From an uncultured Ectothiorhodospiraceae bacterium (GTDB taxonomy: Bacteria > Pseudomonadota > Gammaproteobacteria > UBA6429 > Thiohalophilaceae): a DNA stretch of 64,000 bases. This document shows positions 13,599 through 15,158 of this stretch, piece after piece. Made by a program: the position numbers and the translations under genes. The notes beneath the pieces are model-generated. The model worked only from the letters and a program-made list of their open reading frames with translations, did no database searches and was not told the DNA's origin. The stretch covers positions 1 to 64,000 of the forward strand of contig CAMYOL010000014.1 of the NCBI GenBank assembly GCA_947260005.1, given 5' to 3'. Within the stretch, counting starts at the first letter, position 1; each line of letters starts with the position of its first letter.

Positions 13599-13823
13599 CT
13601 AAATACTTAACAAGGCCCGATCACGCTTTAGGTTTTTCTCAAACGCAAACTGCTCATTCAGGTAGTCGATCAAGCCCTGCTTTGCCATTGCTTTAGTAGT
13701 ATAGGGCCCTTGATCACCTCCACGGCGAATCGCAAACCACCATTCATTATCGACACTATAAAAACGACCACTACGAAATGGAATGGCTCCTTTTTCATCA
13801 TGTCGGCTACGTTGTTGATACAT
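13599..13823 (-). CDS. Small DUF6316-like protein
   Basis: About 74 residues. The core FRSGRFYSVDNEWWFAIRRG followed by GPY and an acidic/helical tail resembles the small gammaproteobacterial family DUF6316, of unknown function. The ATG at 13823 is preferred because GGAGG lies 8 bases upstream; an in-frame ATG at 13829 is only 2 bases from it. It is convergent with the PilZ-like gene and divergent from lexA. The roughly 300 bases up to lexA hold only short palindromes, such as one at 13872-13888. Confidence 0.65.
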   Translation of the reverse strand: MYQQRSRHDEKGAIPFRSGRFYSVDNEWWFAIRRGGDQGPYTTKAMAKQGLIDYLNEQFAFEKNLKRDRALLSI

Positions 13824-14094
13824 ATTCATTCCCTCCCATTAAGTATGAATGAGGGCCATCCCTAGCCGTTTGCATTGCCAGGCAATGCGTCCTACCCCAA
13901 TGTCTATTTCAGTGAATACCTCTGATTCATTGGAAACGATCGTAACGAATCCGGCTTACATTCGTCTGTCAGACAGGCCTGATCTTGCTGTAAGTATTCA
14001 CCTACATGTCTGAATCACTTGCTGAGTATTAAATAACGCCAGGATGGGTGAGGGGGGGTTTTCTATTATTTAATGAAATAAATTACATTTTAAC

Positions 14095-14141
14095 TTGAAA
14101 GTTCTCTGAATGTTCTCTACTATAGAGAACGTATGGAGAAC
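14095..14141 (+). promoter_or_regulatory. lexA promoter with four-half-site operator
   Basis: TTGAAA (14095-14100), a 17-base spacer and TACTAT (14118-14123) form a sigma70-type promoter. Over it lie four half-sites: GTTCTC at 14101 and 14112, then the reverse GAGAAC at 14125 and 14136. Spacing is N5, N7, N5, so outer and inner sites on each side are 11 bp apart. The last half-site lies just inside the coding sequence. This is most simply a LexA autoregulatory operator with an unusual sequence. Confidence 0.75.
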
Positions 14142-14738
14142 ATTTTAACGCTCACTGCCCTTGAACAGAAGATGTTGCGATTTATACGCAATTATCTGGC
14201 CCAGCACGGTCAAGGACCGACCTTGAACGAGATAGGAGCTTCGCTCGGGATCAGTTCAAAAGGCACCGTGCATCGTTATGTGCAAGCCCTGGTTGAAAAG
14301 GGCTACCTTCACCATACCGAACGAGGCTGGCGCGGTATCCGACTTACTGATATCCCACACTCCCACACGACCCTCCCCTTGGTAGGTCGGGTAGCCGCGG
14401 GCCGACCCATCGAAGCCATTCCAGATCAAGATGAACTTAGCTTTGCGGAGTTTTCTAATCCGGATAATTATGCCCTGGAAGTTCAGGGTGACTCAATGTG
14501 CGATATCGGAATACTTGATGGCGATATCGTGATCATTAAAAGCCAGGCAGCCGCTAAAGACGGCGATATCGTGGTCGCACTCATTGATGATCAAGAGGCG
14601 ACCCTGAAACGCTTTCGTAAACTTGATGGTGGTAAAATTAAGTTGATACCGGAAAACAGCCAAATGCAAGCCATGGTATACGATGCACAACGAGTTCAAA
14701 TTCAGGGGATATTAGTTGGACAGCTACGACGTTATTAA
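14133..14738 (+). CDS. lexA: LexA-type SOS repressor
   Basis: A 201-residue self-cleaving repressor. The N-terminal winged helix (residues about 5-70) carries GPTLNEIGASLGISSKGTVHRYV. The C-terminal S24 domain has the Ala89-Gly90 cleavage site (VAAGRP), Ser121 in GDSMCDIGILDGD and Lys159 in ATLKRF, so autocleavage chemistry is intact. The recognition helix differs from the E. coli type, which fits the GTTCTC/GAGAAC operator. The predicted transcription start is only a few bases before this ATG, so the mRNA may be leaderless; the next methionine (residue 14) would remove part of helix 1. Confidence 0.92.
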   Translation: MENILTLTALEQKMLRFIRNYLAQHGQGPTLNEIGASLGISSKGTVHRYVQALVEKGYLHHTERGWRGIRLTDIPHSHTTLPLVGRVAAGRPIEAIPDQDELSFAEFSNPDNYALEVQGDSMCDIGILDGDIVIIKSQAAAKDGDIVVALIDDQEATLKRFRKLDGGKIKLIPENSQMQAMVYDAQRVQIQGILVGQLRRY

Positions 14739-14762
14739 GATTAAGGAAACGGTTTTAAACTG

Positions 14763-15158
14763 TTAACGACCAAAATAGCGTAAGGCATTTTCACTGTTTA
14801 AATAACCTCGAAGCCCGATCAAAAAAATAATCACAACGACATTTAAAATAATCGTCAATATTCCATAGCCCGTGGTTAAATATTTAAGCATTAATAACAC
14901 ATCCAAACCCAGGCTCAATAAAAGTACATAAACCAGGACTCTCGCAAAACCGACAAAGCGACTAGCTCGCAATAATAAAACCAGGGTAACCACAACCAAT
15001 ACTCCCACAGCAAATAAATTGATAAAGCTTAACAGTGGAAGACCAGTAACCGGCAATGAGATCTGTGATTTATGTATGAACATCAAATTTGCGGCAAATA
15101 CACTGGTAAACATAATGCAGAGGGAGCTGAACACCTTAATAGCCGTCGGCATGATCAT
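14763..15158 (-). CDS. Small integral membrane protein, unrecognised
   Basis: About 131 residues with four hydrophobic segments and a short polar C-terminus (LNSENALRYFGR). I do not recognise the family. The ATG at 15158 overlaps the stop of the preceding gene as ATGA, which suggests translational coupling. ATGs at 15167 and 15152 are alternatives. It is the last gene of the tatABC-side minus-strand run and is convergent with lexA. Confidence 0.65.
   Translation of the reverse strand: MIMPTAIKVFSSLCIMFTSVFAANLMFIHKSQISLPVTGLPLLSFINLFAVGVLVVVTLVLLLRASRFVGFARVLVYVLLLSLGLDVLLMLKYLTTGYGILTIILNVVVIIFLIGLRGYLNSENALRYFGR

Follow-up and report, generated by a model that had tools for sequence, protein, structure and literature searches.

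In the portions of the literature available to us, the LexA box of Escherichia coli, which is also the usual one in Gammaproteobacteria, is given as CTGT-N8-ACAG and that of Gram-positive bacteria as GAAC-N4-GTTC (PMC3323433, PMC2248561). The published box of alphaproteobacterial LexA (Caulobacter and others), as presented in the corresponding sections of four papers, is GTTC-N7-GTTC (PMC3323433, PMC8565304, PMC9578287, PMC12700426). For Gammaproteobacteria, the available text names either CTGT-N8-ACAG or a Xanthomonadales variant, and within the open-access literature we found no description of an operator such as the one reported here from this class; subscription papers lie outside that scope, and an earlier description is possible.

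We analyzed an array at the lexA gene in 64,000 nucleotides of DNA (the window) from an uncultured gammaproteobacterium, whose genome amounts to 3.71 Mb in 81 contigs (99.47 per cent complete, 2.1 per cent contamination). Direct reading bears out the four half-sites listed in a preliminary description of this DNA: GTTCTC (14101–14106), N5, GTTCTC (14112–14117), N7, GAGAAC (14125–14130), N5, and GAGAAC (14136–14141). The start given there, 14095, coincides with the beginning of the −35 hexamer TTGAAA. With a probability of about 0.88, we read the array as an autoregulatory lexA operator composed of two opposed boxes of the alphaproteobacterial type, each of which would bind one LexA dimer. The features are as follows:

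14095..14100, forward strand: −35 element TTGAAA (promoter scan; flanking hexamers in lexA promoters of relatives)
14101..14117, forward strand: predicted LexA box 1, GTTCTC-N5-GTTCTC, a GTTC-N7-GTTC direct repeat that makes up the entire 17-bp promoter spacer (sequence, relatives, box model)
14118..14123, forward strand: −10 element TACTAT (promoter scan; hexamers at the equivalent place in relatives)
14125..14141, reverse strand: predicted LexA box 2, the same direct repeat as box 1 on the opposite strand (sequence, relatives, box model)
14133..14738, forward strand: lexA, 201 amino acids, PF01726 and PF00717 (open reading frame [ORF] list, profile searches, alignment)

Box 2 spans the predicted transcription start and the lexA start codon, and its bases 14133–14141 double as Met-Glu-Asn codons. 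Both boxes are exact, with two same-orientation GTTC copies 11 bp apart in a lexA promoter, as in the alphaproteobacterial type, and CTGT-N8-ACAG of the E. coli type is absent from the array and its promoter. The preliminary description had contrasted the array with the E. coli and Gram-positive boxes and implied that it was unlike every known box. This implication has to be dropped, since sections of three papers on Alphaproteobacteria already give GTTC-N7-GTTC (PMC3323433, PMC8565304, PMC9578287).

The array at lexA is not due to chance. Its inner pair, GTTCTC-N7-GAGAAC, occurs a single time in the 64 kb, and 100 shuffles yielded no copy. A box model trained on 55 box sequences, both window boxes included, scores these two at 17.7 and 17.3 bits, and the next best site in the window at 8.9. 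Of 369 genomes drawn from the class, 22 (18 of 272 genera) carry the exact four half-sites with a gap of 5–25 nt, among them three of the four genomes of the window's family; the source genome is included in both counts. A reversed control of the pattern has no match in any listed genome. A lexA homolog adjoins the pattern in 18 of the 22 genomes, which supports the LexA operator that the preliminary description had predicted from sequence. In one genome (L273), the pattern lies before a DinB-like gene for a second Y-family polymerase (polY), and in the other three (L257, L261, and L263) neither a lexA homolog nor polY lies within reach of it. The pattern in L261 precedes a gene for a DEAD-box helicase, whose match to the HRQ1 winged-helix domain is below the cut-off, and in L147 and L278 a gene for a helicase that looks similar is divergent from the operator.

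No second convincing target was found in the source genome, which would be compatible with an array that serves a DNA-binding protein other than LexA. Such a protein is nevertheless extremely improbable: the motif tracks lexA across many families, recurs at translesion-polymerase genes, and equals the box known for LexA of alphaproteobacteria, the proteins with which the LexA of the window groups. The array is a genuine lexA operator and, by its sequence, would represent a variant of the direct-repeat LexA operator that is new in a class with a different usual box.

The protein encoded by lexA scores 168 bits against TIGR00498 (curated cut-off 111), consists of LexA_DNA_bind and Peptidase_S24 domains, and has its best matches among solved structures in LexA repressors. 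An Ala-Gly cleavage site and a Ser/Lys dyad are present and align with E. coli positions 84–85, 119, and 156, which we take to be the functional cleavage residues of E. coli LexA. Residues 44 and 45 (Glu-Glu in E. coli) presumably contact DNA; at these positions, His followed by Arg or Lys is found in all 37 LexA of gammaproteobacterial group A, all seven of group B, and all 15 from alphaproteobacteria. Thirteen mostly Thiotrichaceae sequences, excluded from the promoter set described below, also have His at 44 (13 of 13), and their residue 45 is Lys, Gln, or Arg. Purifying selection acts on the window's lexA (dN of 0.046 and dS of 0.59 against L018; against L019, dS is 1.5 and saturated).

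Apart from the window LexA, no full-length LexA was found in the source genome. The same genome encodes a 159-amino-acid S24 protein (L017 1393–1872; contig C7 near 33663) that scores above the LexA equivalog cut-off and has no recognized DNA-binding domain; its locus has no GTTC-N7-GTTC, and no umuC-like ORF was noticed among its neighbors. In one relative (G017 C19), a second, diverged LexA of group B (L147 1257–1914; recognition helix SRGSLHKHI) has its own opposed pair of the same boxes and is divergent from the helicase-like ORF.

In a 79-row tree, LexA from gammaproteobacteria of the GTTC type and from alphaproteobacteria are split from those of E. coli, Pasteurella, Bacillus, Streptomyces, Geobacter, and Manganitrophus with a support of 100/99, subject to a long-branch warning. 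A tree in which all gammaproteobacterial LexA form one clade is not firmly rejected (approximately unbiased [AU] test; P-value = 0.07) in this set with few E. coli-type rows. Because of this P-value, the few E. coli-type rows, and the long branches, we do not conclude that LexA is of lateral origin. A viral origin was rejected, no relative having been found in viral contigs.

A protein search returned 80 lexA loci, many from metagenome-assembled genomes of gammaproteobacteria (Ectothiorhodospiraceae, Chromatiales, Thiodiazotropha, and others), with an alphaproteobacterial tail, and the array recurs repeatedly upstream of lexA in these loci. The gammaproteobacterial promoter set comprised 38 sequences (the window and 37 loci), after exclusion upon inspection of 15 gammaproteobacterial rows: L052 (cut before the promoter), L068, and the 13 mostly Thiotrichaceae rows. 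These 13 have degenerate boxes or none: in 12 of them, even the best match to GTTCT-N6-GTTCT differs at two or more bases on both strands' patterns, and none has both boxes within one mismatch.

With at most one mismatch in the ten core bases, box 1 (GTTCT-N6-GTTCT) is present in 35 and box 2 in 36 of the 38 promoters. When exact GTTC copies were counted in these promoters with no spacing imposed, same-strand pairs stood 11 bp apart in 62 of 76 strand sets and no other step was seen in more than three, while opposed copies lay at scattered distances from each other. Both boxes are present in 34 promoters, among which nine different gaps occur, the smallest 8 and the largest 21 when measured from GTTCT to AGAAC; the gap in the window is 9. 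Because the 11-bp step is nearly fixed while the gap varies, the conserved object is, by this comparison of promoters, the GTTC-N7-GTTC direct repeat, two copies of which oppose each other; the window's perfect 41-bp dyad would then be one spacing among several. Boxes also precede polY genes that are unlinked to lexA in five relatives (G007, G009, G010, G027, and G029). In G009, G010, and G027 the box stands alone, which is the best sign that the direct repeat may be the binding unit; G029 and G007 have opposed pairs.

The gap is identical in the window and seven relatives (L018–L024), and the polY promoter of G007 shows the same N5-N7-N5 layout. These similarities would fit one large palindromic operator, in which the four half-sites form a single dyad, the N7 inverted core is primary, and dimers cooperate. 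We consider such an operator very improbable, however, in light of the nine gap values, which follow no evident helical rule, and of the lone direct-repeat boxes at polY. Moreover, the inverted core lacks genome-wide enrichment: GTTCTC-N7-GAGAAC with up to two mismatches has 53 sites in the source genome versus 67 for the reversed control (among the matches beyond the array, the gene surroundings were viewed for two one-mismatch sites). Thus, the half-sites and the 11-bp phasing of the preliminary description stand, whereas GTTCTC-N7-GAGAAC, which it had taken as the unit to be sought around the genome, does not.

The hexamer pair 14095/14123 is the only plus-strand promoter in a scan of positions 13800–14800 and matches at 9 of 12 positions. 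Shuffles of the scanned region give 2.1 such sites on average over both strands, so the predicted promoter by itself is weak evidence. Across relatives, a −35-like hexamer (at least four of six matches) lies directly 5′ of the 17-mer in 25 of 35 lexA promoters, and a −10-like hexamer of the same quality directly 3′ of it in 27 of 35 (three of the 38 promoters had no left box within one mismatch). The frame is not universal, since ten promoters have no −35 and eight no −10 at the expected place.

The likely start codon of lexA is the ATG at 14133, because its frame contains no ATG, GTG, or TTG between the TAA at 14091 and this position, and the next in-frame ATG, at codon 14, is within the conserved domain. 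The usual spacing between a −10 element and the transcription start puts the latter at approximately 14129–14131. The lexA leader would therefore probably measure about 0–4 nt, and the mRNA would be nearly leaderless, as the preliminary description had proposed; its overlap of the array with the −10 box (14118–14123) and the ATG, which lies within box 2, is likewise confirmed. So short a leader is predicted for the window and its closest relatives because little space separates their boxes and box 2 contains the ATG. The ATG has this position in the window, in L018–L022, and in L275 (same family); in other relatives, lexA begins after box 2. As judged from these predicted starts, compaction over the start codon is specific to part of the group.

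Could lexA instead have a normal leader, with its main promoter upstream of 14095 and the array serving as a roadblock instead of an operator that overlaps the promoter? The approximately 300 bp before the ATG (13830–14132) have no listed ORF of at least 60 amino acids and would leave room for another promoter, and a 9-of-12 match is what shuffles also yield about twice over both strands. Yet the 14095/14123 promoter is alone on the plus strand of the scanned region, and the promoter frame around box 1 is kept in most relatives examined. We therefore regard a promoter farther upstream as improbable.

In the mechanism that we infer, with respect to LexA binding, dimer geometry, cleavage, cooperativity, and the mRNA 5′ end alike, one LexA dimer would sit on each direct repeat. 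The dimer on box 1 would occupy the spacer between the −35 and −10 elements and block RNA polymerase, and the dimer on box 2 would cover the transcription start and the start codon, adding another block that is largely independent of the first. Both would be lifted when LexA, stimulated by RecA, cleaves itself.

In 22 of 36 lexA loci, polY is located behind lexA on the same strand, at a distance of 8–843 bp; among the other 14, at least two (L027 and L050) end within about 530 bp. The source genome and G001–G003, whose LexA form one clade, have polY away from lexA and without a box, and in the source genome neither Y-family polymerase gene has one. At recA, no exact GTTC-N7-GTTC or CTGT-N8-ACAG is present within 300 bp upstream in any of 25 loci, the source genome included (a 26th locus had no upstream DNA). 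At uvrA, none of the ten loci with a located start, again including the source genome, has an exact box within 400 bp upstream (a script located the start in ten of 20 loci). No imuB was seen in the source genome. The preliminary description would have counted a lack of sites near other SOS genes against its reading; the source genome has none at recA, uvrA, or either Y-family polymerase gene, but relatives do have boxes at polY, and for that reason the operator reading stands.

Exact GTTCT-N6-GTTCT occurs at seven sites in the source genome. Two are those of lexA; the other five, located within ORFs or across their starts, were rejected because these ORFs do not resemble SOS genes. The looser pattern GTTC-N5-W-N-GTTC has 41 exact sites, compared with 48 for the reversed control: two at lexA, three among the seven above, and 36 others. 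Thirty of these 36 are inside an ORF of at least 90 amino acids and six are outside (L190, L194, L195, L201, L208, and L214); by eye, from ORF starts, no SOS gene was seen next to any of the 36. A box-model search of the source genome scored 150 of 1558 candidates and so covers part of the mismatched sites, and the same kind of search in relatives (88 rows) did not list one good box. Further LexA targets with mismatched half-sites may therefore exist in the source genome. For the 88 rows, surroundings were viewed at 20 places, 13 rows of at most 12.6 bits were left aside, and the rest were assigned to lexA boxes by pairing and contig position; L148, L149, and L151 were left out and L150 was re-examined. 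Fetched sites such as L153, L154, L157, and L159 are inside genes and look like chance.

The searches in relatives also turned up LexA-like sites and lexA genes in other settings. In Thiodiazotropha, direct repeats of 16.7, 13.1, and 12.4 bits (L144 and L156 in G017, L155 in G020, scores in the order L144, L156, L155) lie just before transposase-like ORFs, and among these three an IS91 zinc-binding domain was confirmed for L144 only; an insertion element is possibly under SOS control there. A strong LexA-like box of 19 bits (L141; G021 C13 near 209694) precedes a C-5 cytosine DNA methylase gene by approximately 250 bp. On a Methylophaga thalassica plasmid (L280), lexA overlaps the DNA polymerase IV gene behind it and has only a degenerate ATTCTC-N5-ATTCTC upstream. 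On a Methylobacter sp. plasmid (L281), lexA is divergent from umuD and a Y-family polymerase gene, with one GTTC-N7-GTTC box between them.

The polY promoters of the source genome, G001, and G002 (L139, L160, and L161) have no LexA boxes but other blocks in common, TTAGTTATTGTA, GCTTGCGG, and TTTGTTTCAAT, which are perhaps the site of another regulator. A WYL-domain gene adjoins recA in 11 of 26 recA loci (L105, on contig C36 of the source genome, L109, L110, L111, L116, L118, L119, L123, L125, L131, and L132), as assigned by Pfam for the source gene and by tblastn to that gene for the others. The motif TAAAAA[AG]TATTGACAT, usually just behind AGGTG, is present in ten of the 11 WYL-linked recA promoters and, with one substitution, in the remaining one, that of the source genome; its core is absent from the 14 other recA loci with upstream DNA. 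This distribution suggests that recA may be controlled by the WYL protein instead of LexA, an arrangement loosely like PafBC of mycobacteria, as far as the available text on that system goes (PMC5656591).

That no second target was found in the source genome is odd for a working LexA. On a tentative reading, which we hold to be rather unlikely, the SOS circuit of the subclade of the source genome and G001–G003 has been reduced to hardly more than a lexA that represses itself. LexA would then be an autorepressor reset by damage, with few or no other targets, a compacted operator, and a nearly leaderless start, and recA would have passed to another damage regulator. We raise this because polY, which is no longer in the operon, lacks a box, uvrA lacks one too (source genome and G002), and recA stands beside the WYL gene with its own promoter motif.

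A broad set of gammaproteobacterial families has an alphaproteobacterial-like LexA with boxes of the alphaproteobacterial type, so that use of the E. coli box to predict their SOS regulons would fail. These families also provide a natural setting in which to test how a single GTTC half-site is used in palindromes, direct repeats, and opposed pairs, and whether LexA and recA can be uncoupled.

Compared with the E. coli system, the window has the same gene and the same autoregulation at the promoter but direct repeats in place of one palindrome, and other recognition-helix residues. The GTTC half-site is shared with Gram-positive bacteria, in which His at E. coli position 44 occurs in one of two rows aligned; spacing and orientation differ, the window having an N7 direct repeat instead of an N4 palindrome. 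With the alphaproteobacterial box, the half-site, the 11-bp direct repeat, and the gene are identical. Among 28 alphaproteobacterial lexA promoters, the 11-bp step is found in 27 of 56 strand sets, and 12 promoters contain an opposed pair in which neither copy has more than one mismatch; in all 12, GAAC..GAAC comes first and the copies are 25–26 bp apart from start to start. The window, in contrast, has GTTC..GTTC followed by GAAC..GAAC, with a variable gap among relatives, and it differs further in its gammaproteobacterial host, in box 1 as the promoter spacer, and in that no recA or uvrA sites were found. Outside Alphaproteobacteria, lexA of Acidobacterium capsulatum is reportedly a lateral acquisition of an alphaproteobacterial lexA, to go by the title of the 2006 study of Mazon et al. 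It provides a precedent for an alphaproteobacterial-type lexA beyond that class, whereas the type seen in the window is spread over many gammaproteobacterial families and has its own arrangement.
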